A program made the translations under genes and the position numbers. The notes under the pieces are model-generated. The model searched no databases and was not told the origin of the DNA. It worked only from the letters and a program-made list of their open reading frames with translations. A stretch of DNA of 64,000 bases from Roseococcus suduntuyensis (GTDB lineage Bacteria; Pseudomonadota; Alphaproteobacteria; Acetobacterales; Acetobacteraceae): NCBI RefSeq assembly GCF_014196305.1, contig NZ_JACIDJ010000003.1, positions 62,001 to 126,000 on the forward strand, read 5' to 3'. This document shows, piece by piece, positions 9,607 to 63,728 of the stretch. The stretch's first letter is position 1. The number at the start of each line of letters is the position of its first letter.

Positions 9607-10889
9607 GCGATGGGCTTCACCCCGCACCAGTCCGCGATGAAGGTGGCCATCGCCAGCGTGGTGGTCTTGAGGTGCGCGAGGTTCGTCCGCTCGTCGAAGG
9701 CATGCGCGCCCTCGCCCTTGGGGCCGTAGCAGAGGGCCGGGATGTCGAAATACAGCCCGTAGAAGCGCGTGTCGTTCACCGCCGTCGTGATTCGTGCCGG
9801 CATGTCCTCGCCGAAGGCGGTGCGGTGGGCGTCGGCCAGCACGGCCTCGGCCTCGGTGCCGGGTTCCAGCACATAGCCATCGGCCAGGAAGCCGTGCCAG
9901 AGGATGTCGGGCGGGTTGTTGGCCAGGAAGTTGTTGGACCGCGCGGCGGCCGCCACGGCGCGCTCCACCCCGGCGCGCGCCTCGGCCACATCGGTGCCGG
10001 GCAGCAGGCCGATGCGGCAATCCACCTCGCACCAGGCGGGCGTGGAGCTCGCCCAGTCGCCGCCGCGGATGATGCCCGGGTTGAACTTCACCGGGTCCGG
10101 CACGTCCTTGTACCAGGGGTGGGATTTCGCGGCCTCGTTCACCGCCGCCGTGTGGTCGTAGAGCGCCTGGATGAGGTGATAGGCGCTCATGATCGCGTTG
10201 CTGCCGGTCTGCGCCACGGCCACATGCACGGGCACCCCGCGCACGCGGATGCGGAACCACAGCGTGCCGGTGTGGGCGCGGGTGATGGTGCCGCCGGTGG
10301 GCTCCGGGATCAGGCAGGCATCGGCGCGGTAGCCGCGCAGCAGCGTGGCGAGCGCGCCGTTGCCGGTGCTTTCCTCCTCCGTCACGGTCTGGAGATACAC
10401 GTCGCCGCAGGGCGCGTAGCCCGCGCGCGTGACGGCCTCCATGGCGAAGCACATGGCCGCCACGCCCGCCTTCATGTCATGCGCGCCGCGCCCATACATC
10501 CAGCCATCATGGATGGCGGCGGCATAGGGCGGGTGGCTCCACATCTCGTGCGGCCCCTCGGGCACCACGTCGATATGGCCCTGGATGATGAGGCTGCGGC
10601 CCGTGGCGGGCTCGGCCCGCTTCGTCGCCACCACCTGCATGGACAGCGCCGGGTCCACCTCCACCATGGGGCTCGCCTTCGGGTGGTCCTTCAGCGGCAC
10701 GTCGGCGATGGAGAAGCGGTCCACCACATAGCCGCGCTGCGCGAACCAGCGCGCGATATGGTCCTGCAGGGGCCCCTCGCGCCCGCGCAGCGAGGGGTGG
10801 CGGACGATCTCGGCCAGGAAGCGCACCTGCTCGTCGAAGCCCGCCTCCACCGCTTCGGAGAGGCGCTGGAGGATCGCTTGGTCAGCCAT
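9603..10889 (-). CDS. M20 family deacylase/peptidase (ArgE/DapE-like)
   Basis: Di-zinc amidohydrolase of 428 aa that removes an acyl or amino-acid group, as ArgE, DapE or carboxypeptidase relatives do. Metal ligands are visible: H105 and D107 in GHIDVVPEG, D138 in GRGAHDMKAG, catalytic and ligand Glu171/Glu172 in TEEES, and a later His in the GEGAHAFDE region. A dimerisation insertion lies in the middle. It sits between a peptide-type binding protein and a nucleoside deaminase in one minus-strand unit, which suggests it hydrolyses what the receptor captures. The precise substrate is unknown. Confidence 0.88.
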   Translation of the reverse strand: MADQAILQRLSEAVEAGFDEQVRFLAEIVRHPSLRGREGPLQDHIARWFAQRGYVVDRFSIADVPLKDHPKASPMVEVDPALSMQVVATKRAEPATGRSLIIQGHIDVVPEGPHEMWSHPPYAAAIHDGWMYGRGAHDMKAGVAAMCFAMEAVTRAGYAPCGDVYLQTVTEEESTGNGALATLLRGYRADACLIPEPTGGTITRAHTGTLWFRIRVRGVPVHVAVAQTGSNAIMSAYHLIQALYDHTAAVNEAAKSHPWYKDVPDPVKFNPGIIRGGDWASSTPAWCEVDCRIGLLPGTDVAEARAGVERAVAAAARSNNFLANNPPDILWHGFLADGYVLEPGTEAEAVLADAHRTAFGEDMPARITTAVNDTRFYGLYFDIPALCYGPKGEGAHAFDERTNLAHLKTTTLAMATFIADWCGVKPIA

Positions 10890-10903
10890 GGGACGGGTCC
10901 TGT

Positions 10904-12472
10904 TCAGGCCGGGGTGGCCAGGATGGCATTGGTGTAGAAGAGCGGCGAGGGGTCATAGCGCACGCGGTTCCGCAGCCCCGCCCAGTTGTTCCGCAGGTAG
11001 TGGACAGGAATGATGCCGAGGTCCGAGGTCAGCGCGCGCATGGCCTGCTGGGTCAGCGCGGTGCGGCGCGCCTCGTCCATGGTGCGCAGCGCCTCTTCCA
11101 GCGGGCGGTCCAGCTCGGGGTTGGAGTAGAGCAGGCGGTTGAAGGGGCCGACGCCGGTGGCGGGGTCCCGCGTCATGGCCACCTGGCGCATCATGTTGGC
11201 GGCGGTGCTGGTGGTGAAGGTGGCGAAGATCACGGAGAATTCGCGGGCCGTGGCGCGGCTGTAGAAATTGGCCGGCGGCAGCACCTCCACCCGCGTCTCG
11301 ATGCCCGCGCGCGTCCAGCCCTGGGCCACGGCCTGCAGCAGGTCCGCATCGCCGGGGATCCAGCCATTGGGGCCATGGATGTTGAGGCGGAAGCCCTCGG
11401 CCCAGCCCGCCTCGCGCAGCAGGGCGCGGGCGCGGTTCACGTCATAGGGCATCTCCGGCAGGTCCGGCACGCGGTCGGGCAGGGAGGGGGCGGCGAACTG
11501 GTTGGCCGGCCGCCCCTGGCCCTGGAACAGCCGCTCCACGATGCCCTGGCGCGGGATGGCGAGGCTGAGCGCCTGGCGCACCCGCACGTCGCGCAGCGGG
11601 TTGCGCTCCAGCGGCTGGCCCGCGCGGTTGAACATGTGCGGCGCCGGTTCGCGCACCGTGTCGGGCATGATGTAGCTGGTGGTGACGCTGTCCACGCTGA
11701 ACAGCGCGATGCGCGGGTCGTTGTTGAAGCGCGGGATGTCCTGGAAGGGGACGTTGTCGATCAGGTCCACATCGCCCGCCAGCAGGGCCGCGCTGCGCGC
11801 GCCGGCATTGGTCAGGAAGCGGAAGACGGCGCGCGGCCAGGGCGCGGTCTCGCCCCAGTATTCGGCGTTGCGCTCCACCTCCAGCCGCTCGCCCTGGGCG
11901 TAGGAGACGAACTTGTAAGGCCCGGTGCCGATCATGCCCCGGCCCGCGTTGAAGTCGGCCAGCGTCGCGTTCGCGTGGATGCGGCGCGAGAGCATGTGGA
12001 TGGAGATGATGTCGCGCGGGAAGAAGGGCGTGGGCGCGCTGGTGTGGAAACGCACCGTCACGGGGTCCACCACCTCCACGCGGCGCACGCTGCGGACCAT
12101 CGGCGTGAAGGGGCCGGGCGAGTTGGGCACCTGGGGCACGCGCTCGAAGCTAAAGGCGATGTCCTCGGGCTCGAAGGGCGTGCCGTCGTGGAAGCGCACG
12201 CCGGCGCGCAGTTTGAACTCCCAGGTCAGGTCATCCACGACCCGCCAGGATTCCGCCAGCCGCGGGCGCAGGCTGCCATCGGTGTGCAGCAGGACCAGCG
12301 TCTCGAAGATCTGGCCCAGCAGCGCGTTGTTGTTGTTGGTGCTGTGGAAATGCGGGTCCATGCCCGTGGGGATGCCGGCCATGCCGACCGTCAGCGGACG
12401 GTTGGGCTGGGCCAGCGCCGCCCCCGCGGGCAGGGCAAGGAAGGGCGAGGCGAGCAGGGCGCGGCGTTGCAT
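10904..12472 (-). CDS. ABC transporter substrate-binding protein, family 5 (peptide/nickel type)
   Basis: Periplasmic solute receptor of the DppA/OppA family, about 522 aa. The start chosen (complement of 12470-12472) gives MQRRALLASPFLALPAGAALAQ, a twin-arginine-like or Sec signal peptide with an AxA cleavage site; a longer frame to 12514 is possible but would bury the signal. Family features include TVGMAGIPTGMDPHF after the signal, LAESWRVVDDLTWEFKLRAGVRFHDGTPF, and many aromatic pocket residues. No permease or ATPase gene is nearby in the window, so the partner is elsewhere. It is the first gene of the M20-deaminase unit. Confidence 0.9.
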   Translation of the reverse strand: MQRRALLASPFLALPAGAALAQPNRPLTVGMAGIPTGMDPHFHSTNNNNALLGQIFETLVLLHTDGSLRPRLAESWRVVDDLTWEFKLRAGVRFHDGTPFEPEDIAFSFERVPQVPNSPGPFTPMVRSVRRVEVVDPVTVRFHTSAPTPFFPRDIISIHMLSRRIHANATLADFNAGRGMIGTGPYKFVSYAQGERLEVERNAEYWGETAPWPRAVFRFLTNAGARSAALLAGDVDLIDNVPFQDIPRFNNDPRIALFSVDSVTTSYIMPDTVREPAPHMFNRAGQPLERNPLRDVRVRQALSLAIPRQGIVERLFQGQGRPANQFAAPSLPDRVPDLPEMPYDVNRARALLREAGWAEGFRLNIHGPNGWIPGDADLLQAVAQGWTRAGIETRVEVLPPANFYSRATAREFSVIFATFTTSTAANMMRQVAMTRDPATGVGPFNRLLYSNPELDRPLEEALRTMDEARRTALTQQAMRALTSDLGIIPVHYLRNNWAGLRNRVRYDPSPLFYTNAILATPA

Positions 12473-53722: not shown

Positions 53723-53812
53723 GGACAGGTGGCCGAGTGGTTTAAGGCAGCGGTCTTGAAAACCGCCGTGGGGGCAACTCTACCGTGGGTTCGAATCCCA
53801 CCCTGTCCGCCA
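53723..53812 (+). tRNA. tRNA-Ser (TGA anticodon)
   Basis: 90-nt type II tRNA. Acceptor arms GGACAGG (53723-53729) and CCTGTCC (53802-53808), discriminator G and encoded CCA. The anticodon arm GCGGT-CTTGAAA-ACCGC has anticodon TGA, reading UCA codons. A long variable arm and the T arm with GGTTCGAATCC are present. It marks the left edge of the accessory segment at 53.9-62.6 kb. Confidence 0.97.
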
Positions 53813-53873
53813 CCCACCTCTCTCAACGGATTGATGCGGCGAAAATCCCCCACGGGCCGCGTGCAGGCCCGCT

Positions 53874-54482
53874 TCAGAACGCGTAGCCGCCCCAGTCCAG
53901 CTCCTCGCGGAACCGCGCCTCGACCAGTTCCCGCAACTCGGCATCGTAGTAGGTCCGGTAGGGCGCATGGTCGCCGCGGTTGCGGTGCGGCAGCGCCCGT
54001 GGCGGCAGGCCGATGGCCTGGAGCAAGGCAGCGACCTCCCGCTCGAGGCGCTCGAAACGCAGGAGCATGTCCAGCTCCGCGTCCAATGCGCCGCCGGGAC
54101 CGGTGCGGATAAAGTCGCGCAGGGTCGCCTGGCTGATGATCAGCTGCCGGAAGGCGTCCCGGTCAAACCCCTGGATGCGCCCGTCCGCCACACGGTGTGG
54201 TGAGAAATAGGCGCTCACCAACCGCTCATACGGATTGCGAATGACGGAGAACTTATAGAGCCGGTCGAACAGCTCGGCCGGCAGAGCCCGCTTGTAATCC
54301 GCGAGGCGGGAGTGCTTGCGGGTGCCGAAGCCGTCGTTCCGCACGTCGAAACGCTCGGTCCCGTCCTGGGAACCGGTGACGCTCTTGCTGTCCTCGGAAT
54401 AGGGCAGCAGTATCTCTGATATCGAATTCCCGCCCGACTTGCCACGATGGATAAACAGGAAGTCGTGGCGAATCGAGATCAT
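53874..54482 (-). CDS. Sulfotransferase family 2-like protein
   Basis: 202-aa protein resembling membrane-associated or Golgi-type sulfotransferases that move sulfate from PAPS to a hydroxyl group. The 5'-phosphosulfate loop is FIHRGKSGGNSISEILL and the 3'-phosphate site VIRNPYERLVSAYFS. The middle is acidic and Arg-rich (RFDVRNDGFGTRKHSRL). Composition is somewhat A/T-richer than the genes around it. It is divergent from the second sulfotransferase-like gene and lies next to tRNA-Ser. Acceptor unknown. Confidence 0.8.
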   Translation of the reverse strand: MISIRHDFLFIHRGKSGGNSISEILLPYSEDSKSVTGSQDGTERFDVRNDGFGTRKHSRLADYKRALPAELFDRLYKFSVIRNPYERLVSAYFSPHRVADGRIQGFDRDAFRQLIISQATLRDFIRTGPGGALDAELDMLLRFERLEREVAALLQAIGLPPRALPHRNRGDHAPYRTYYDAELRELVEARFREELDWGGYAF

Positions 54483-54593
54483 AGGTTTGAAAGAATAGCA
54501 GTCCGGGTTACGCCTCGTCCAGGAACGCCCCCGCCGGACCAGGGCGCTGGCCTGCCGGGAGAGGCATCACCGCGCACACCCACCGGGGCCTCC

Positions 54594-55889
54594 ATGCTGG
54601 CTGCACGCAAGATCTTCCACCTGCACATCTCGAAATGCGGCGGCACGGCGCTGAACGCCGCGCTCGACTCCGAAACCCATGCCGAGCGCGCGCGTCCGCC
54701 CGCCGAGTTCGGGCAGCGCCTGCGCGACCGCGGCATCGCCCATGCCGACATCGCCGCCCTGCAGGACCCCGCCTTGCGCCCCACCCTCGCCGAGGCCGCG
54801 CGCGAGAGCATCGCCTGGTTCGACGTGCTGCACGGCCATGTGGACATCGCCCCCTGGCTGGACGCGGACGACCATGTCTTCACGGTGCTGCGCCGGGCCG
54901 ACCGGCGCGCCCTGTCGCAGTTCCAGGACTATCGCCGGCTGGCGCCGCACGACTACGCCCACAAGCCCGACGACTGGCGCCGGATGCACGAGGCCTGCCG
55001 CGAACTTCCCGACTTCGCCCGGCTGCGCGCCGCCTGCGGCGACGCCCTGCCCTTCCGCAGCATGTTCGAGGACCACCAGTGCCGCGCCCTGACGCAGCAC
55101 AGCGTCAGCGCGGAGGCCTTCGACGCCATGCCGCCGGAGGAGCGCGCCGCGCAGGCCTGGCGCACGCTGCAACACTACGGCGCCCGCATCGGCGTGCTGG
55201 AGGAGGTGGACCGGCTGCGCGGCGAGCTGGCGCGCGACATGGGCTGGTGCCCCCCCGCCCCGCTGGAGGTTCGCAACCGGACCGCGCCGGAGGAACATGG
55301 CGAGGCCGCGCGGGCCGCCGCCGCCGCGGTCACCACGGGCGACCGCCTCCTGCACGACCGCGCCGTGGCGGCGCTGCGCGCGGCCCCTGCCCGCGACTAC
55401 ACGCTCGCGGAGTTCGAGGCCGAGTTCGTCGCCGCGCGCCTGTCCGCGCTGGCGCCGATGCGGATCGGCGCGGAGCATGTCTTCGACATGAACATGCCGC
55501 TGGTCGGCCGGGGCCTGCACGGCCGCGACGCCGCCGGCAGTCGCGAGTGCTGCCGCTGGCTGGGTGCCGACCGCGACGCCCTGATCTACCTGCCGGTGCC
55601 GGGGCCGGGCGCGCGGCTGACGCTGCGCCTCTACAACAAGGGCTGGGTGGACCCTGGCCTGCGCGACCGGCTGACGGTGACGGTGGACGGCATGCCGGTG
55701 CGGAGCTGGTCCGAGCCGCGGCGCGAGGTGGCCGAGGCGATCTGCTTCCGCGCGGTCGCGCGGCGCGGCTGGGTGCGCATCGGGCTGCATGGCGAGCATG
55801 CGCTGACGGACACCGAGGCCGGCCGGCCCAGCGACGACGGCCGCCCCAAGATCTTCAACCTCTGGCGCTACAGCTACCAGGCCGACTGA
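54594..55889 (+). CDS. Sulfotransferase-like protein with extra C-terminal domain
   Basis: 431-aa protein. The N-terminus IFHLHISKCGGTALNAALDSE is the sulfotransferase phosphate loop, and VFTVLRRADRRALSQFQDY matches the downstream Arg/Ser 3'-phosphate region only loosely. Residues about 300-431 form a beta-rich domain with LTLRLYNKGWVDPGLRDRLTVTVDG and VRIGLHGEHAL that looks like a carbohydrate- or ligand-binding jelly roll; this joining is unusual. ATG at 54594. It stands upstream of the operon starting at 55974 in the same direction. Confidence 0.6.
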   Translation: MLAARKIFHLHISKCGGTALNAALDSETHAERARPPAEFGQRLRDRGIAHADIAALQDPALRPTLAEAARESIAWFDVLHGHVDIAPWLDADDHVFTVLRRADRRALSQFQDYRRLAPHDYAHKPDDWRRMHEACRELPDFARLRAACGDALPFRSMFEDHQCRALTQHSVSAEAFDAMPPEERAAQAWRTLQHYGARIGVLEEVDRLRGELARDMGWCPPAPLEVRNRTAPEEHGEAARAAAAAVTTGDRLLHDRAVAALRAAPARDYTLAEFEAEFVAARLSALAPMRIGAEHVFDMNMPLVGRGLHGRDAAGSRECCRWLGADRDALIYLPVPGPGARLTLRLYNKGWVDPGLRDRLTVTVDGMPVRSWSEPRREVAEAICFRAVARRGWVRIGLHGEHALTDTEAGRPSDDGRPKIFNLWRYSYQAD

Positions 55890-55973: not shown

Positions 55974-57434
55974 ATGCTTCTTCCTATGGAAACGACGGCG
56001 GGCGAAAACGGGGAGGCGGGGCAGCGGCCGCGATGCGGCTGCGTGGCCGCGATACCGCAGGATGAGCGCGCTCGCCTCCTGGCCAGGGCGCGGCAGGCAC
56101 ATGACGGCGGTGATCATGCGGCGGCGCTGCCCCTGTGGGACGAGGCCCTGCACCGCTGGCCGGAACATGCCGGCCGCGACGAGACCCTCGCCTTCGCCCG
56201 CCTGCTGCTTGCCTTCAACACGCCGCGCCGGCCGGAGGATGCGCTGGTCCCGCCGCACGCCGCCGGGGCCCTGGCCCGGCTGCACGCGCGCTGGCCGGAG
56301 GAGCCGCTGGGCTGGATCGGGCTCGCGAAGCTCGCCGAATGGCGCCTGGTCTGGCCCGAAGCCATGGGTCACTGGCAGGCGGTGTTCGAGCGGTTCGACG
56401 CCGTGGCCGAGCCGGGCTGGTACGAGCAGGCCATGACGGTGGCCTGGCTTGCCCATGCCGGTCCCGTCTTCAAGGCGCTCCGCGCCAGCCTGCGCCAGCG
56501 CTGGCCGGATCACGAAACCTGGTGGGACCAGCGCGCCTATGGCCGCCGCGGCAGCGCCGGCGGCAGCCCCACGCCCGCCGGGCCGCCAAGCCTGCGGGAC
56601 GTGGAGAATCTTCTCCGCTTCAGCACGCCCTCCGAGGCGAAGCGGGTGCTGGAGACGCTCCCCGCGCTCGATCGGGAGAGCGCCACCGGCCGCGCCTGCG
56701 CCCACATCATCCGCACCCTGGAGCACAGCGGCCTGCTGGAGGACCTCGAGGCCGGGGGCGCGGAACCCGCGCGGCCCGGCACCACCCTGGTCTGGCGCAA
56801 CCCCGCCGGCGGCGACCGGGCGCTGATCGTCTTCTCCGGCGGCGCGCGGGGCTATTGGCTGCTGCTCGACGAATTGCACCGCGTGCTGCGCGGCTGCGGC
56901 GTGCACCTGATCTATCTGAGGGGCCTTGGCGCCAGCTTCTACATGGCTGGCGATCCGGATCTCGGCATCGCGGACTATGCCGGCCTGCTCGACCTGCTGC
57001 GCGCGCAGGCCGCCGGGCTGGGTGCCACGCACCTTGCCTGCCTCGGCAATTCGGCCGGCGGCTACGCGGCGCTGCGCTATGCCCTCGACCTGGGGGCGGA
57101 AGGGGCGCTCGCCTTCAGCATGCTGACCAATCCGCAGACGCGGCATGACCCACAGTTCGCGCCGGCCATCAATGCCATCGCGCAGCGCAACCCCGGCCTC
57201 GTCTTCGACCTGGCGCAGGCCTATGCCGCGGCCGCGCGGCCCCCGCGCACCATCCTGTGCTTCGGTGAAGGCCATGAGACGGACCGCCGGGAGGCCGCGC
57301 GGATGCGGGGCATCCCCGGCGTGCGGCTGGTGGCGGCCGAGGGCCTGGCCGACCACGGCGCCATCCGCTGGTTCCTGCGGCGGGGCGAGGTGCCCGGCCT
57401 GGTCGCCTCCCTGTTCGAGGCGCCGCCGGCGTGA
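55974..57434 (+). CDS. TPR-like plus alpha/beta-hydrolase protein
   Basis: 486-aa protein. Residues 35-200 are helical repeats (LLARARQAHDGGDHAAALPLWDEAL, GWIGLAKLAEWRLVWPEAMGHW) of TPR type. Residues 265-486 resemble an alpha/beta-hydrolase with a Ser elbow CLGNSAGGYAALRYAL, a following FSMLTNPQT segment and a C-terminal His candidate in GLADHGAIRWF. It may be a thioesterase or deacylase. ATG at 55974; a second ATG is at 55986. Its TGA overlaps the ATPase gene by GTGA, tying it to the importer operon. Confidence 0.6.
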   Translation: MLLPMETTAGENGEAGQRPRCGCVAAIPQDERARLLARARQAHDGGDHAAALPLWDEALHRWPEHAGRDETLAFARLLLAFNTPRRPEDALVPPHAAGALARLHARWPEEPLGWIGLAKLAEWRLVWPEAMGHWQAVFERFDAVAEPGWYEQAMTVAWLAHAGPVFKALRASLRQRWPDHETWWDQRAYGRRGSAGGSPTPAGPPSLRDVENLLRFSTPSEAKRVLETLPALDRESATGRACAHIIRTLEHSGLLEDLEAGGAEPARPGTTLVWRNPAGGDRALIVFSGGARGYWLLLDELHRVLRGCGVHLIYLRGLGASFYMAGDPDLGIADYAGLLDLLRAQAAGLGATHLACLGNSAGGYAALRYALDLGAEGALAFSMLTNPQTRHDPQFAPAINAIAQRNPGLVFDLAQAYAAAARPPRTILCFGEGHETDRREAARMRGIPGVRLVAAEGLADHGAIRWFLRRGEVPGLVASLFEAPPA

Positions 57435-58198
57435 GGATCACGCTGCAGGGCATCGGGCTGGACTATCCCGGGCCGCGGGGCCCGCTGCGCGCCGTGGACG
57501 GGCTGGACCTGGAGGTGGCGCCCGGGGAGTTCCTGGGCCTGATCGGCCCCAGCGGCTGCGGCAAGTCCTCCCTGCTGGCGATGCTGGCCGGGCTGCGAGC
57601 GCCCAGCGCCGGCCGCATCGGCTTTCCCGGCTGGACCGGCCCCCGCCCGCCCCGCCGCCTGATGGCCTTCCAGGAACATGGGCTGCTGCCCTGGCTGAGC
57701 GTGCTGGACAATGTCGCCTTCGGCCTGGAGGCCCAGGGCATGCCGCGCGCCGCGCGCGAGGCCCGCGCCCATGCCATGCTGCGCCGCCTGGGGCTGGAGG
57801 GCTTCGCCACGTCGCGCCCGGACCAGCTCTCGGGCGGCATGCGCCAGCGCGCGGCCCTCGCCCGCCTCTTCGTCGCCGAGGCCGAGGCGATGCTGCTGGA
57901 CGAGCCCTTCTCCGCCCTCGACGCGCAGACCCGCGTGGTGCTGCAACAGGAGCTGCTGGACCTCTGGTCCGGCACCGGGCGCAGCGTGGTCTATGTCACC
58001 CATGACATCGAGGAGGCGCTGCTGCTCTGCGACCGCGTGGTGGTGCTCTCGGCGCGGCCGGGGCGGGTGATCGCGGACATCACGGTGCCCTTCCCCCGCC
58101 CGCGCCGCATCATGGGCCCACCCCCGCCGGAGGTCGCCGCCCTGCGCTGGCGGATCTGGGACATGCTGGCGCCCACCATCACGCCGCCGGCCGCCTGA
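57431..58198 (+). CDS. ABC importer ATPase (nitrate/sulfonate/taurine type)
   Basis: 255-aa nucleotide-binding subunit of an SsuB/TauB/NrtC-type importer. Walker A is GLIGPSGCGKSSLLAML, Q-loop AFQEHGLLPWLSVLDN, signature QLSGGMRQRAALARL, Walker B AMLLDEPFSALD and H-loop VVYVTHDIEEALLL. GTG start overlaps the hydrolase stop, and its TGA shares a base with the permease ATG. Substrate is set by the binding protein encoded downstream. Confidence 0.92.
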   Translation: MRITLQGIGLDYPGPRGPLRAVDGLDLEVAPGEFLGLIGPSGCGKSSLLAMLAGLRAPSAGRIGFPGWTGPRPPRRLMAFQEHGLLPWLSVLDNVAFGLEAQGMPRAAREARAHAMLRRLGLEGFATSRPDQLSGGMRQRAALARLFVAEAEAMLLDEPFSALDAQTRVVLQQELLDLWSGTGRSVVYVTHDIEEALLLCDRVVVLSARPGRVIADITVPFPRPRRIMGPPPPEVAALRWRIWDMLAPTITPPAA

Positions 58199-58899
58199 TG
58201 GCGCACCTGCTCGCCCTCCTCCTCGCCGCCGCGGCCTGGGAAGCCGCCGCGCGGGCCGGCTGGGTGGCCATGCTGCTCTTTCCCCCGCCTACGATCATCC
58301 TCGCCTGGCTGGTGGAGAGCCTGCGCAACGGCGAGATGGCCGAGAGCCTGATGGCGAGCGGGCAGCGCCTCGTGCTCGGCTTCGGCCTGGGGGCCGGGCT
58401 GGGCACGCTGGCCGGGCTCGCGATGGGCCTCGCCCCGCGCCTGCACCGTGCGCTCGACCCCGTGATCGCCGCCCTGCACCCGATGCCCAAGGTGGCGCTG
58501 CTGCCGCTGTTCCTGGTGCTGTTCGGCTTCAGCGAGAAGGCGCGGATGGTGCCGGTGGCGCTGGTCGCCTTCTTCCCCGCGGCCATCGCGGGCGCCGTCG
58601 CCGTCCGCGCCATTGATCCGCTGCTGTGGAATGTCGCACGCAACTATGGCGCGCCGCCCCTGATGGTACTGCGCCGCCTGGTGCTGCCGGGCGCCTGGCC
58701 GGTGCTGCGGGCGGGGCTCAGGCTGTCGCTCAACGCCGCGATCGTGGTGCTGATCTCGGTCGAGATGCTGAGCGGCAATGACGGGCTGGGCGCCGCGGTC
58801 TGGCAGTCCTGGCAGACCATGCGGGTAGAGCAGCTCTACGGCACGCTGCTGGTCCTGGCCATGCTCGGCCTTGTCTTCAACCGCTGTCTCGGCCGCTGA
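58198..58899 (+). CDS. ABC importer permease (SsuC/TauC type)
   Basis: 233-aa inner-membrane protein with about six hydrophobic segments, the binding-protein-dependent transport fold. The coupling (EAA) loop is visible as VARNYGAPPLMVLRRLVLPGAWPVLRAGLRLSL. PMPKVALLPLFLVLFGFSEKARMVPVALVAFFPAAIAGAVAV is typical of sulfonate/nitrate/taurine systems. Start shares a base with the ATPase stop. The short length omits an N-terminal helix seen in some relatives. Confidence 0.9.
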   Translation: MAHLLALLLAAAAWEAAARAGWVAMLLFPPPTIILAWLVESLRNGEMAESLMASGQRLVLGFGLGAGLGTLAGLAMGLAPRLHRALDPVIAALHPMPKVALLPLFLVLFGFSEKARMVPVALVAFFPAAIAGAVAVRAIDPLLWNVARNYGAPPLMVLRRLVLPGAWPVLRAGLRLSLNAAIVVLISVEMLSGNDGLGAAVWQSWQTMRVEQLYGTLLVLAMLGLVFNRCLGR

Positions 58900-58938
58900 G
58901 CGGGTGTGGCGGGCCGCCTTTTGGAAGGATCAGGTGAG

Positions 58939-59928
58939 ATGCTGAAGAGGCGAGGATGGACGCGGATCGCCCGCGTCGCGGCACGGGCCGGCCGGGTGCT
59001 CGGCCTGGCGCTGTGCCTCGCGGCGCTGCTGCCGGCCGCGCCGCGGGCGGAGCGGGTGAAGCTCGTGGTGCTGCCCTTCCTGTCGCAGGCGCCGATCTTC
59101 ATCGCGCTGGAGGAGGGCCTCTTTGCCCGCGAGGGCATCACGATCGAGCCGGTCGCCCTCTCCTCCTCCCATCTCGCCCTGCCGGGGCTGATGAGCGGGG
59201 ACCTGGACGCCGGCATCCCCCAGGCCTCACCCGCGCTGTTCAACGCGGTGGCGCGCGGCGGCCGCGCCCGGCTGGTGGCCTCCGGCGTGATGCTGGCGCC
59301 GGCCCCCTGTTCCTACGCCGCCTTCTACGGCACCGGGCTCACGCTCGCGGCGCTGACCTCGGGCGAGGCGCGTTCGCTGCGCGTCAGCGCCGACCCCAAC
59401 GCCTTCGAGGGCTTCCTGGTGGACCTGCTGCGGCAGCGGCGCGGCGCCGAGCGGCTGCAGGTGCAGTTCCGCGAGATGCCTGTGCCGGCGCAGCAGGCGG
59501 CGCTGGCCGCCGGCGCGCTGGACCTCGCCTTCCTCTCCGAGCCCTGGGTGGCGCGGCTCGATCAGGCCGGGGTGGGCCGCGTCGCCGTGGGGGCGGAGGA
59601 ATTGCTCCCGGGCGGCCAATTCACCGCGCTGATGTTCTCCGAGCGGATGCTGGCCGATGGCCAGGCGCTGGGCCGCCGCTTCCTGCGCGCCTACCGCGCC
59701 GCACTGGTCCGCTACAATGAGGGCAAGACGCCGCGCAACCTCGAAATCCTGGCGCGCGCCACCCGGCTTTCGCCCGAGCTGCTGGAGCGCGCCTGCTGGC
59801 CCAGCATGCCGGCCGATGGCGCGCTGAACCTGGACAGCCTGCTCGCCTATCAGGACTGGCTGCGGCAGCGGCGGCTGATTGACCGCGTGCTGGCGCCGTC
59901 CGACCTGGTGGCGGAGATCACGCCGTGA
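58939..59928 (+). CDS. ABC importer substrate-binding protein (SsuA/THI5-like)
   Basis: 329-aa periplasmic binding protein. The signal sequence VLGLALCLAALLPAAPRAERV precedes VKLVVLPFLSQAPIFIALEEGLFAREGITIEPVALSSSH, the NMT1/SsuA opening. It has ASPALFNAVARGGRARLVASG and LLVLSEPWVARLDQ-type features (DLAFLSEPWVARL). This family binds sulfonates, nitrate, pyrimidines or aromatic acids. ATG at 58939 after a GGTGAG site; a GTG at 58906 is possible. It overlaps the next gene by GTGA. Confidence 0.88.
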   Translation: MLKRRGWTRIARVAARAGRVLGLALCLAALLPAAPRAERVKLVVLPFLSQAPIFIALEEGLFAREGITIEPVALSSSHLALPGLMSGDLDAGIPQASPALFNAVARGGRARLVASGVMLAPAPCSYAAFYGTGLTLAALTSGEARSLRVSADPNAFEGFLVDLLRQRRGAERLQVQFREMPVPAQQAALAAGALDLAFLSEPWVARLDQAGVGRVAVGAEELLPGGQFTALMFSERMLADGQALGRRFLRAYRAALVRYNEGKTPRNLEILARATRLSPELLERACWPSMPADGALNLDSLLAYQDWLRQRRLIDRVLAPSDLVAEITP

Positions 59929-61739
59929 TCCCCTTCGAACGCGCCGAATTCGACGGCAAGATGCCCTTCGAACGCGCCGAGTTCGACGGCACGATCCCAG
60001 CCCGGCTGCGCCGGATCGTCGAGGCCCTGCCGGAGGCCGAGGCGCTGGTCGAGGACGGGCGCGCCCTGACCTATGCCGCGCTGGACGCCGAGACCGACCG
60101 CGCGGCCGCCTCCCTCGCCGACCTGCCGGCGGGCGGCGCGGTGGCCCTGGTCTTCGGCATCGGCACCGAGGCCGTCATCGCCCTGCTCGGCGCGCTGAAG
60201 GCCGGCGTGCCGGCCATGCCGATAGACCCGGCCGCCCCGCCCGAGGATGTCATGGGCCTCTTCGCACAGGTGGCGCGCATCGTCACCGCGCCGGCGCAGG
60301 AGGCCTGGTGCCGGGACCGCGCGGGCCAGGTGCCGGTGCAGGTCGGCACGGCCCATCCGGCCCCCGCCCAGGCTGCACGGACGCCGCGGCCGGAGGACCC
60401 GGCCATCATCTACCTCACCTCGGCCAGCACCGGGCCGGCCAAGGGCGTGGTCCGCACCCAGCGCTCGCTGTGCTGGCATGCCGGGCTGCAGACCCGCCAC
60501 CACGGCTATGCGCCGGGCGAGCGCATCGCGCACCTCTCCTCCTTCGCCTTCGCGGGCTCGATCCCGGCCATCCTCGGCGGGCTGCTGGCCGGCGCCACGG
60601 TGGAGGTCTTCGACAGCCGCCGCCACGGCCTGCTCGGCCTCGGGCGCTGGGCGGCGGAGCGGCGGATCACCGTGCTGCCGGTGACGCCCCCCGTGCTGCG
60701 TGACCTCGTCGAGGCGCGCATGCCCGAACGCCAGGCCTGGCAGCCGCGCCGCATCATCGTGGGCGGCGAGGTGCTGCGGCCGGAGGATGTCACGGCGCTG
60801 CGCGACCGCCTGGGCTGGGACTGCGCCGTGGTGAACCGCCTGGCCAGCAGCGAGGCGGGGATGATCGCCGAATGGGTGGTGGACCCCGCGGCCGTGCAGG
60901 GGCGAGAGGCGGTGCCGGTCGGCTGGCCGGTCGAGGACCGCCACGTCACCCTGGTGGACGAGCAGGGCGAGCCGGTGCCCCTGGGCGAGATCGGGGAGAT
61001 CGTCGTCTCCGGCGACTACACGGCCATCGGCTACTGGGGGCGCCCGGAGCTGACGGCCGAGCGTTTCCGCCCCGACCCCGATCGCCCGGGGTGTTTCCGC
61101 GTCTTCAGCGGCGATCTCGGCCGGCTGCACCCGGACGGGATGCTGGAGCATCTCGGCCGGGCCGACCACATGGTGAAGATCCGCGGCTACCGCGTGGAAC
61201 TGGCCGCCGTGGAGGCGGTGCTGTGCCGGCAGGAGGGCGTGGCGGAAGGCGTCGTGCAGGCCGTGCGGACGTCGGGCGGCGACATGCGCCTGGCCGCCTG
61301 GGTGCAGCCCGCGCCAGGCGTGGAGATCAATGGCCTTGCCCTGCGGCGGCGCCTCGCCTCGCAGCTGCCGGACTACATGCTGCCCTGGCGGGTCGGCGTC
61401 TTCGAGGCCCTGCCGCGCTCGGCCGGCAACAAGATCGCCCGGGGCCGGCTGCCGACGCTCAGCGGCACGCGCCCCGACGGCATGGCCCCGCCGGTGCCGA
61501 CGCGCGGCGAGACCGAGTGGCTGCTGGCCGAGATCTGGTGCGAGATCTTCGAGGTGGACGAGGTCGGCCGCGAGGATGACTTCTTCGAATTCGGCGGGGA
61601 TTCGCTCGACATGCTGCAGGTGGCCGCCGGGCTCTACGAGCGCCGCGCGGTGTTCATCACCGATTCCGACCTGCTGGAGCACCCCCGCCTGGCCGATATG
61701 GCCGCGGCGGTGGACCGCCTCACGGAAGACGCGGCCTGA
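59925..61739 (+). CDS. Stand-alone adenylation-thiolation (NRPS-like A-T) enzyme
   Basis: 604-aa two-domain enzyme that would activate a carboxylic or amino acid as AMP ester and load it on its own carrier. Core motifs: IIYLTSASTGPAKGVV (A3), NRLASSEAGMIAEW (A5), GDLGRLHPDGMLEHLGRADHMVKIRGYRVE (A7-A8) and NKIARGRLP (A10 Lys near 503). The carrier domain has DDFFEFGGDSLDMLQ, phosphopantetheine Ser at about 560. No condensation or thioesterase domain is fused. The N-terminus is a repeated 11-residue unit (59928-59993). GTG start overlaps the binding-protein stop; ATG at 59961 is an alternative. Confidence 0.85.
   Translation: MIPFERAEFDGKMPFERAEFDGTIPARLRRIVEALPEAEALVEDGRALTYAALDAETDRAAASLADLPAGGAVALVFGIGTEAVIALLGALKAGVPAMPIDPAAPPEDVMGLFAQVARIVTAPAQEAWCRDRAGQVPVQVGTAHPAPAQAARTPRPEDPAIIYLTSASTGPAKGVVRTQRSLCWHAGLQTRHHGYAPGERIAHLSSFAFAGSIPAILGGLLAGATVEVFDSRRHGLLGLGRWAAERRITVLPVTPPVLRDLVEARMPERQAWQPRRIIVGGEVLRPEDVTALRDRLGWDCAVVNRLASSEAGMIAEWVVDPAAVQGREAVPVGWPVEDRHVTLVDEQGEPVPLGEIGEIVVSGDYTAIGYWGRPELTAERFRPDPDRPGCFRVFSGDLGRLHPDGMLEHLGRADHMVKIRGYRVELAAVEAVLCRQEGVAEGVVQAVRTSGGDMRLAAWVQPAPGVEINGLALRRRLASQLPDYMLPWRVGVFEALPRSAGNKIARGRLPTLSGTRPDGMAPPVPTRGETEWLLAEIWCEIFEVDEVGREDDFFEFGGDSLDMLQVAAGLYERRAVFITDSDLLEHPRLADMAAAVDRLTEDAA
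59928..59993 (+). repeat. Two 33-bp direct repeats at the 5' end of the A-T enzyme gene
   Basis: Unit 1 (59928-59960) and unit 2 (59961-59993) encode (I/M)PFERAEFDG plus two variable residues; only a few bases differ. The units keep frame (11 codons). The second copy begins with ATG, giving an alternative start. Confidence 0.85.
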
Positions 61740-61750
61740 GGAGCCCGGCG

Positions 61751-62560
61751 ATGTATCCCCTCGAACCCCGCGCGGGCGAGATCGGCCGGCTGGCCGCGCA
61801 AGGCGCCTGGCTCACGGAGGAGGCCGAGGCGCTGCTCTCCTCCATCGGGGTCGGGCCGGGCTGGCGCTGCCTCGACCTCGCCTGCGGCCTGGGCGACGTG
61901 ACGCGGCTGATGGCGGCGCGGGCCGGCGCGCCAGGGCTGGTGGTCGGCCTGGACCTGGAGCGGCGCTTCCTCGACCACGCGCGCGCCGAGGCGGCGGGCG
62001 CGGTCGAGTACCTGGAGGCGGATGCCTGCCGCACGGGCCTGCCCGATGGCGGCTTCGACCTGGTGCATGGCCGCTTCCTCTTCGCCGGCGCGGCGCAGTT
62101 CGACCCGCTGCTCACGGAGGCCATCCGGCTGGCCCGCCCAGGGGGAACAATCGCGCTGCAGGAGCAGGACCTCTCCAGCATGGCCTGCTTCCCGCCGCAC
62201 CCCGCCTTCGCGCGGCTGAAGGGGATGCTCGGCGCGGGGCTGGAGCAGAGCGGCACCGGCCGCGGCGTCGCCCGGCGGCTGTTCGGCCTGCTGCGGCAGG
62301 CGGGGCTGCGCGAGCTGCGCTACCGCCCCTTCCTGGTGTCCTGCCAGGCGGGCGACCCGCAGGCCGCCTGGCTTCCGGACATCGTGGACTCGCTGCGCGG
62401 CCCGTTGCTGCGCGCCGGATTGACCGACGGCCCCGCCCTGGACGAGGCCATCGCCGCCTGCCGGTCGCACCTCAACGATCCGGGCACGACGGCGATCCTC
62501 TACACCGTGGTGCAGGTCTGGGGGCGCAAGCCCGCCGGGGCGGCGGTGGAGGCAGGGTAG
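61751..62560 (+). CDS. Class I SAM-dependent methyltransferase
   Basis: 269-aa Rossmann methyltransferase. The SAM motif is CLDLACGLGDVTRLMAARAG, with GLDLERRFLDHARAEAAGAVEYLEADACRTGLPDGGFDLVHGRFLF (motifs II-IV) and PGGTIALQEQD. The C-terminal half is Arg/Leu-rich and specific. It starts 11 nt after the A-T gene stop and is the last gene of the accessory operon, so it probably methylates the loaded or released product. Acceptor atom unknown. Confidence 0.88.
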   Translation: MYPLEPRAGEIGRLAAQGAWLTEEAEALLSSIGVGPGWRCLDLACGLGDVTRLMAARAGAPGLVVGLDLERRFLDHARAEAAGAVEYLEADACRTGLPDGGFDLVHGRFLFAGAAQFDPLLTEAIRLARPGGTIALQEQDLSSMACFPPHPAFARLKGMLGAGLEQSGTGRGVARRLFGLLRQAGLRELRYRPFLVSCQAGDPQAAWLPDIVDSLRGPLLRAGLTDGPALDEAIAACRSHLNDPGTTAILYTVVQVWGRKPAGAAVEAG

Positions 62561-62809
62561 CGCGCGCCCACGCGGCGTGACGAAGGGAAGGTCCAGGTTC
62601 GGGGCGAGCCGTCGCGAAAGGAAGTCCCGCCGGTCCGCAACCGCATGATGGCGGCGTCCCCCTCGAGCCACCCCCAGGGCCTGCAGCGGCGGCAGGCGGC
62701 TTCCGGCGAAACCCTCCGCGAGCCGGGTCATCTCCGCAAGCTCCTCCTCTTCCGGAGCGAGCGGCTTGCCCTCGCGCGGCAGGCCCTGGCCCCGGCACGG
62801 GAGGGACAT
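62561..62809 (-). pseudogene. Possible 5' remnant of a truncated gene
   Basis: ORF begins MSLPCRGQGLPREGKPLAPE and continues with acidic EEEELAEMTRLAEGFAG and basic GRRHHAVADRRDFLSRR parts that look protein-like and codon-biased. It would run on into the opposite strand of the methyltransferase gene without a stop. No ribosome-binding site was seen. The family is not recognised. It could be chance in GC-rich DNA. Confidence 0.3.
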
Positions 62810-62888
62810 TGGTGGCCGCCGCAGGTAGGATTGGTTAAGCGATCCATCCCAAGGGGATACGCGACACTCTTTCCCACGGAGCCCCGCC
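62561..62888. other. 328-bp gap without a confirmed gene
   Basis: The plus strand shows no plausible gene. The minus strand from an ATG at 62809 reads with good codon bias (LPREGKPLAPEEEELAEMTR, then FAGSRLPPLQALGVARGG) but has no stop until inside the methyltransferase gene, so a truncated gene remnant is possible. The right end contains the short leader of the next gene. Confidence 0.4.
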
Positions 62889-63728
62889 ATGGCTGACGAC
62901 AAGGCTTCCCTCTCCGCCCGCATCGGCGTGGATCTCGGCGCGCGCCTGCGGCTGGAGGACGGGCTGGAATGGGCGTCGTCGGCGGGTTTCGCGCATCTGG
63001 ACATCCGCCTGGGCGATGCGGGCAATGAGTTCGACGGCTTCGACGGCGCACGGCTGCGCGCGGCGCGCGGGCTGAAGGAACGGCTCGGGCTCGAGCTTGG
63101 CCTGCACACGCTGTCGGCCGTGAACATGGCCGAGACCGCGCCCTACCTCGCCGCCGCCACCGACAACTACCTGCGCGCCTATGTGGACCTGGCCGGGCCG
63201 CTGGGCGCGGGCTGGATCGTGGTCCATGCCGGCTACCACTTCACCGACGACTACGACCGCCGCACCCAGGCCGCGCTGACCCGGCTGCGACGCCTGGGCG
63301 ACTACGCGCGCACCCAGGGCGTGCGCCTGCTGCTGGAGAACATGAACCCCGAGCCCGCGGATGCCGAGGTGCGCTACCTGGCCTGCGACATCCCCGAATG
63401 CGAGCGCTTCTTCGCGGCCCTGGACCCGGAGGTCTTCGGCTGGTCCTTCACCGCCAACCACGCGCACATGCTGCCCGTGGGCGTCGAGGGCTTCTACCGC
63501 CATTTCGGCCCGGCCCGGATGGCGGAGGTGCGCCTCGCCGACAACCGAGGGGCCAAGGAGGAGCACCTGTTTCCCGGCGAGGGCAACATGGACTTCAACG
63601 CCCTGTTTCGCCTGATCGAGGGCGAGGGCTATCGCGGCCACTACATGCTGGCCTTCGGCGGCCCGGACGACATGCGCGCGGGCCGCGACAAGCTGGTGGC
63701 GGAGTGGGAGATGGCGGCCCGCGCCTGA
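62889..63728 (+). CDS. Sugar phosphate isomerase/epimerase-like TIM-barrel protein
   Basis: 279-aa xylose-isomerase-like (AP endonuclease 2 superfamily) protein. ARIGVDLGARLRLEDGLEWASSAGFAHLDIRLGD, GLELGLHTLSAVNMAE, WIVVHAGYHF, LLLENMN, WSFTANHAHMLPVG, RLADNRGAKEEHLFPGEGNMDF and GYRGHYMLAFGG contain the metal-binding Glu/Asp/His pattern. Substrate unknown. It is followed by a palindromic gene-end element that overlaps the stop codon. Confidence 0.86.
   Translation: MADDKASLSARIGVDLGARLRLEDGLEWASSAGFAHLDIRLGDAGNEFDGFDGARLRAARGLKERLGLELGLHTLSAVNMAETAPYLAAATDNYLRAYVDLAGPLGAGWIVVHAGYHFTDDYDRRTQAALTRLRRLGDYARTQGVRLLLENMNPEPADAEVRYLACDIPECERFFAALDPEVFGWSFTANHAHMLPVGVEGFYRHFGPARMAEVRLADNRGAKEEHLFPGEGNMDFNALFRLIEGEGYRGHYMLAFGGPDDMRAGRDKLVAEWEMAARA

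Follow-up and report, generated by a model that had tools for sequence, protein, structure and literature searches.

RalA is a bacterial enzyme that combines adenylation (A), thiolation (T) and thioesterase (TE) domains (A-T-TE). Fungal quinone synthetases are A-T-TE enzymes of the non-ribosomal peptide synthetase (NRPS)-like type, as described in the available parts of two reports (PMC9047271, PMC10316625). In CmaA/CmaE (coronamic acid), LgnB/LgnA and CouN7, acids bound to an A-T didomain or carrier are moved by transferases acting in trans; the acids concerned are amino acids or, in one case, a pyrrole acid, and the systems belong to larger pathways, with no importer mentioned in the accessible part of the source (PMC8748450). 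The stand-alone A-peptidyl carrier protein (A-PCP) enzyme PA1221 of Pseudomonas aeruginosa (PDB 4dg9) is given L-Val as substrate and a product listed as unknown in the available portion of PMC11253843. Here we describe a six-gene operon in a 64,000-nt stretch of the Roseococcus suduntuyensis genome (the whole stretch is called the window below) that encodes a stand-alone A-T enzyme together with an ATP-binding cassette (ABC) importer, a separate hydrolase and a methyltransferase. Stand-alone A-T and A-T-TE enzymes are already known, and it is the coupling to an importer, a split hydrolase and a methyltransferase that appears to be new. An earlier note on this DNA had known of no pathway with this set, and we likewise found none with importer, A-T enzyme, split hydrolase and methyltransferase in the accessible text of the open-licence PMC literature. 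A survey of the Acetobacteraceae lists A-PCP-TE clusters and a hybrid NRPS-polyketide synthase cluster in R. tokyonensis, and the part of it available makes no mention of the six-gene cassette (PMC8776678).

All six plus-strand open reading frames are present in the window, and the consecutive arrangement and junctions given in the earlier note were verified in the sequence. Gene 1 (55974-57434, 486 aa), a fusion of tetratricopeptide (TPR)-like helical repeats with an alpha/beta-hydrolase, overlaps the gene of the TauB/NrtCD/SsuB-like importer ATPase (57431-58198) by a 4-nt GTGA (57431-57434), and the ATPase gene overlaps that of the SsuC-like permease (58198-58899) by 1 nt in a TGATG at 58198. 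After a spacing of 6 nt follows the gene of an NMT1_2/SsuA-like substrate-binding protein (58906-59928, 340 aa), which shares a second GTGA (59925-59928) with the A-T gene (59925-61739, 604 aa); 11 nt between 61739 and 61751 then separate the A-T gene from that of an S-adenosylmethionine (SAM)-dependent methyltransferase (61751-62560, 269 aa). Pfam and NCBIfam support the assignments of the ATPase, permease and binding protein, the last of which also has PDB sequence matches, and Pfam supports the A-T enzyme (AMP-binding, PP-binding) and the methyltransferase (Methyltransf_25/11), which gave general methyltransferase matches only among solved structures. The hydrolase of gene 1 stays below its cut-off (Hydrolase_4, 20.4 bits versus 27). 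A search of the region for promoter and terminator consensus sequences gave none.

The cassette is rare but conserved. Comparison by tblastn revealed the same six-gene order in four genomes: that of the window, Roseococcus thiosulfatophilus (G044, locus L038) and G175, both of the window's genus, and Falsiroseomonas tokyonensis. The A-T orthologs of R. thiosulfatophilus and F. tokyonensis (L039) are 95% and 82% identical to that of the window. True A-T orthologs were found in 3/21 genomes of the genus, 3/299 sampled genomes of the family, 4/395 of the order sample, where the fourth (G840) is F. tokyonensis, and 1/385 of the class sample (the window's own genome); these samples overlap and the counts are not additive. 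Some A-domain match at 1e-30 was present in 92 of the 299 family genomes, the next best matches after the orthologs being other A domains with at most 39% identity. Full-length relatives of gene 1 were found in the same three of the 299 family genomes and in F. tokyonensis, and 15 further family genomes match part of it (14 the hydrolase half, 1 the N-terminal part). The importer genes adjoin the A-T ortholog in each of the four genomes, and the neighbourhood comparison bore out the suggestion that importer, hydrolase, A-T enzyme and methyltransferase travel together in all four genomes with a true A-T ortholog, one of them with a frame-broken permease. Homologous A-T enzymes apart from the importer, which the earlier note had named as evidence to the contrary, were not seen among the orthologs; relatives of up to about 41% identity do stand in other contexts and are different proteins, mostly A-T-TE enzymes or NRPS modules (nine neighbourhoods compared, two on contigs of 3-4 kb). 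The ratio of non-synonymous to synonymous substitution rates (dN/dS) between the window and F. tokyonensis is 0.20-0.35 for all eight genes of the conserved block, which includes an upstream pair described below (213 codons for the permease, 455 for gene 1), and all eight are therefore kept by selection. Given this ratio and the gene order shared by the four genomes, the conserved set is not due to chance.

The A-T enzyme is an NRPS-type A-T didomain (Pfam AMP-binding, 174.1 bits; PP-binding, 48.1 bits) and contains Lys503 (equivalent to the catalytic Lys517), the A7 motif GDLGR and, as previously claimed, the carrier serine Ser560, located in GGDSLD. The structure prediction called for by the earlier note yielded an AlphaFold2 (AF2) model from 20 sequences with a mean predicted local distance difference test (pLDDT) of 85.7, whose top PDB matches are A-T-containing NRPS modules; PA1221 has the same A-T layout (TMq 0.79, 24% identity). 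The pocket residues came from motif alignment and not from the model coordinates: positions follow GrsA numbering, using what we take to be the GrsA motifs, rather than a superposed structure. At the Asp235 position the enzyme has Ala210, and its A5 motif reads NRLASSE instead of NxYGPTE, both identical in the window and the three orthologs, so that the two marks of an alpha-amino-acid A domain are absent. Among 80 compared A-domain rows (several loci included twice, the 12 commonest letters counted per position), Asp235 is found in 55 and Lys517 in 80. Since the Asp that binds the alpha-amino group is replaced by Ala, an ordinary amino-acid A-T enzyme was ruled out and the substrate is probably an acid without an alpha-amino group; the earlier proposal of an imported acid or amino acid is narrowed to its first half. 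In A domains for hydroxy acids and keto acids, the residue in place of Asp235 is small or aliphatic, according to the part of PMC11253843 available. Arg305 occupies pocket position 322, also in the three orthologs, and Arg or Lys occurs there in 0 of the 79 rows counted at this position. This Arg may recognise a second anionic group, for example a sulfonate or carboxylate.

A FastTree phylogeny places the cassette A domains in a clade of seven (support 0.975) with L069, L070, L072 and L117; the wider clades have supports of 0.477 (the next node), 0.80, 0.936 and 0.999, the widest of these taking in two large NRPS. Within the 14-member clade (support 0.80), Asp235 is absent in 11/11 other members. 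A-T-TE relatives share the clade of the cassette A domains and, like the cassette, have A and T domains without a condensation domain; the A-T-TE enzymes L064, L065, L070 and L117 also lack Asp235 and have their own alpha/beta-hydrolase-type thioesterase match. Five A-T relatives were scanned, with a thioesterase match in four (three above and one below the cut-off) and a condensation domain in one. In contrast to these A-T-TE enzymes, the cassette A-T protein has no fused C-terminal thioesterase and ends after its T domain, the hydrolase is encoded by a gene of its own and has a helical N-terminal part, the operon adds an importer and a methyltransferase, and the pocket code differs. We considered the A-T-TE relatives as members of the same system and dropped them, their neighbourhoods being without other cassette genes. 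Beyond the matches that led there, 18 stretches yielded nothing but ABC ATPase matches at 25-36% identity and two partial, weak matches to the A-T enzyme, the latter adjoining a gene-1 relative in L087; at L186 there was the A-T match and no other cassette gene. The L186 protein, an A-T-TE enzyme of ~870 aa (9686-12283) from a genome of the same genus without the cassette (G248), has its A domain in the same clade. By eye, the nucleophile of the L064 and L065 thioesterases is Cys, where Ser is usual (GNCFDG and GDCFGG, respectively).

Because the A-T-TE relatives carry a fused thioesterase, we read the separate hydrolase as a thioesterase in trans, and gene 1 would then provide, as a separate protein, the function that A-T-TE enzymes carry on the same chain. 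Its model is helical and fairly reliable over residues 28-186, where pLDDT values are mostly 65-88 and drop at residues 84-90. The motif GNSAGG (GNSSGG in F. tokyonensis) is presumably the nucleophile elbow, and its Ser is conserved in the aligned orthologs together with His461. No gene-1 relatives were found in the viral contigs scanned.

Taking these features together, we tentatively favour a mobile cassette that takes up a carboxylic acid without an alpha-amino group and modifies it on a carrier, in effect a split A-T-TE system with its own importer. The ABC importer would take up the acid, the A domain would adenylate it and load it onto Ser560 of its own carrier domain, and the methyltransferase would modify either the tethered acid or the product after release. 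Gene 1, an alpha/beta-hydrolase carrying a helical-repeat arm, would act as a detached thioesterase or acyltransferase, releasing the acyl group or passing it to an acceptor. Loading on Ser560 is well supported by family knowledge, and the operon structure and the precedents of CmaA/CmaE, LgnB/LgnA and CouN7 suggest the import of the A-T substrate, the methylation target and the hydrolase role. Of the scheme in the earlier note (adenylation, loading, methylation, release or transfer), the gene set and Ser560 hold, and we infer the order of loading, methylation and release.

The assertion that no condensation domains take part agrees with a profile search of the window's genome (4.14 Mb, 17 contigs), which returned 0 matches to PF00668 at E 0.001, with a positive control in 4/14 named genomes; a condensation domain in the genome, the mark of a classical NRPS pathway, is thus missing, which also sets the genome apart from the CmaA/CmaE, LgnB/LgnA and CouN7 systems. 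One phosphopantetheinyl transferase (PPTase) match was found in the window's genome and one each in G044 and G175. That of the window's genome lies between a relA/spoT-like gene and lepB/rnc-like genes and is read by eye as the housekeeping AcpS. With a single match, the Roseococcus carrier, if working, is served by AcpS or by something unrecognised, and AcpS would apparently be the sole primer of the carrier in this genome. Fatty-acid carriers have a DSLD motif, which the GGDSLD of the cassette carrier recalls, and this would fit priming by AcpS. We consider it decidedly unlikely that every part of a more specific version holds, namely a condensation-free pathway with its own importer, an Arg-recognised sulfo- or dicarboxylic acid without an alpha-amine, AcpS priming, methylation on the carrier and transfer by the helical-repeat hydrolase, leading to a new class of methylated, perhaps sulfated, acyl product. 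If the favoured reading is true, the cassette couples the import of one particular acid to thiotemplate chemistry in which no peptide bond is formed, and does so in bacteria where no condensation domain is detected. With only six to eight genes, it would also be a convenient system in which to find a new A-domain specificity and to examine if AcpS is able to prime a carrier of this kind.

Several observations weigh against the uptake and carrier-bound modification of an acid as proposed here. Among the NCBIfam matches listed for the importer (for the ATPase, the best 25 of 187), no substrate-specific model reached its cut-off. The permease gene of R. thiosulfatophilus (L038 8272-8972) is split over two frames while the other operon genes are open, so that the importer is intact in 3/4 genomes; the split may reflect either a real frameshift or a fault in the assembly. 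In the former case it speaks against the importer being strictly required, and the importer would be dispensable in this species while the A-T gene stays open. Some A-T-TE relatives have Arg at pocket position 299, and the Arg at 322 may therefore be structural, as charged residues occur at other pocket positions in these relatives. Support at the tree nodes outside the seven-member clade is uneven. The hydrolase half of the gene 1 model is unreliable and its best PDB sequence matches have E values of 0.4-0.9, so the thioesterase role is suggested rather than established. F. tokyonensis has two PPTase matches. AcpS often works poorly with peptidyl carriers, so priming of the cassette carrier may be inefficient. 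Finally, the sulfotransferase pair upstream of the operon points to sulfation, a step outside the proposed scheme.

Transporters for taurine, nitrate and aliphatic sulfonates head the NCBIfam matches of the importer, and none of these scores comes near its cut-off (TauB, 210.4 of 357 bits; SsuC, 100.8 of 347; SsuA_fam, 45 of 163.5). The binding protein gave weak partial matches to NrtC/CmpC chains among solved structures (E about 2e-4 to 5e-4). What was formerly called an SsuABC-type importer resembles the three-part SsuABC, TauABC and NrtABC importers at the level of the superfamily, and these scores do not carry a substrate-specific assignment. The possibility that the genes are part of a well-known sulfonate operon, raised earlier as a potential refutation, was rejected on the basis of these scores and because, unlike SsuABC/TauABC, the cassette has no monooxygenase or other SsuD/TauD-type gene. 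An organosulfonate substrate would, by conjecture, fit both the Arg in the A-domain pocket and the sulfotransferase neighbours. Transporters of the taurine/nitrate/sulfonate family usually serve nutrient uptake. Together with the apparently mobile, accessory nature of the cassette, the importer matches are in keeping with scavenging or catabolism, in which an imported aromatic or organosulfur acid would be activated on the carrier for breakdown or detoxification, methylation being the detoxifying step. The cassette, however, contains no oxygenase, hydratase or other degradative enzyme, and carrier-bound activation is unusual for catabolism; we consider this explanation unlikely. An importer might also retrieve the cell's own product, as siderophore loci commonly encode importers for self-made small molecules, and a product that is a small acid or ester might leave the cell without an exporter. 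Such biosynthesis of a small chelator or signal from an endogenous acid by the A-T enzyme, methyltransferase and hydrolase, followed by re-uptake, appears most doubtful, as the cassette has no outer-membrane receptor or regulator and the best matches of the importer are not siderophore importers.

The flanks of the cassette differ in F. tokyonensis, and for this reason it looks like a mobile accessory element. Both the window and G044 (L038/L062) have prpD and tRNA-Ser as the left flank, and G175 has an ABC-transporter operon there (by eye). In F. tokyonensis the left flank consists of pqq genes, recognised by eye and with Pfam, and a resolvase-type recombinase and RepB/ParB form the right flank. 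In the window, a tRNA-Ser(tga) (53723-53812, plus strand, ARAGORN) adjoins the left edge of the conserved block, placed by blastn at ~53859-53874; DNA common to G175, F. tokyonensis and G195, a genome that shares the genus label g95 with F. tokyonensis, starts 47-62 nt past this tRNA gene, which is absent from the stretches compared from G175 and F. tokyonensis. Between the window and F. tokyonensis, the proportions of synonymous (pS) and non-synonymous (pN) differences are 0.26-0.46 and 0.08-0.14 for the cassette genes; for three pqq genes (named by eye, pqqB partial) compared between Roseococcus and Falsiroseomonas they are 0.38-0.47 and 0.15-0.25. This crude comparison, with its overlapping ranges, is only suggestive of a recent horizontal transfer between the two genera. 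A plasmid-borne close relative was sought and rejected (2501 plasmid records matched, every one at <60% identity), as was a defence island, PADLOC having matched only the ATPase and the methyltransferase, which we took as generic.

On such a mobile unit, the importer and the A-T/methyltransferase/hydrolase set could be functionally separate and merely co-carried, as might be suggested by the recombinase and RepB/ParB adjoining the cassette in F. tokyonensis, by the sulfotransferase pair, which is clearly separable, and by G044, where the permease is in two frames and the A-T gene is open. The start/stop overlaps that tie the importer to the hydrolase (57431) and to the A-T enzyme (59925), and the same order in four genomes, argue against separate functions, to which we assign a low probability.

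Upstream of the six genes lies a divergent sulfotransferase-like pair, present in 4/4 genomes (tblastn), which the earlier note did not list, nor did it list the mobile context. The smaller protein (53874-54482, minus strand, 202 aa) matches Sulfotransfer_2 (33.7 bits versus a cut-off of 22) and is intact in the window, F. tokyonensis and G195 and broken in G044 (L038 4218-4559) and G175 (L060 2824-3154). The larger one (54594-55889, plus strand, 431 aa; orthologs 78-89% identical) has no Pfam or NCBIfam match; we take a HISKCGGTAL motif, read by eye, as grounds for the sulfotransferase label, and moved the gene start from 54447 to 54594 in view of the poor conservation of the first 49 aa. In G195 the pair is 71% and 68% identical, and none of the six operon genes was matched in the 19.9 kb around it, so the conserved block consists of two modules.

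The adjacency of the pair to the six genes in all four genomes raises a further explanation, surface decoration, in which the hydrolase would act as a transferase and put the methylated acyl group on a surface glycan sulfated by the neighbouring sulfotransferases. Relatives of the larger member at L110 and in G099 (L109) stand in apparent polysaccharide export clusters (by eye), and the DNA beside the cassette in G175 and G044 encodes a giant PATR-repeat protein and also carries a MethyTransf_Reg gene. This explanation strikes us as rather unlikely: G044 and G175 have a broken copy of the smaller sulfotransferase, G195 has the pair but not the six-gene operon beside it, the cassette has no glycosyltransferase or exporter, and the polysaccharide reading of L110 received no Pfam backing in the two proteins scanned. 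The distant relatives of the larger protein (27-32% identity) are found in the window's own genome (L110 8267-10132) and at L109, L108 and L111, those of L110 and L109 amid genes that by eye resemble ones for polysaccharide export and glycosyl transfer.

Downstream of the operon, ~10.1 kb of G175 (L059 4434-14527) and G044 (L061 3021-13111) are missing from the window at 62560-62890. The missing DNA encodes the giant PATR-repeat autotransporter-like protein (~2850 aa in L059) and the MethyTransf_Reg methyltransferase, of which a 46-residue C-terminal stretch persists in the window as a gene remnant (62668-62806, minus strand), recognised by comparison with G175 and G044. The junction in the window has a 7-10 nt overlap, as expected for a deletion. 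Within the operon, the N-terminus of the window's A-T enzyme (59925-59993) has 12 extra residues that form a near-repeat of those that follow (MIPFERAEFDGK/MPFERAEFDGT) and are absent from the orthologs.

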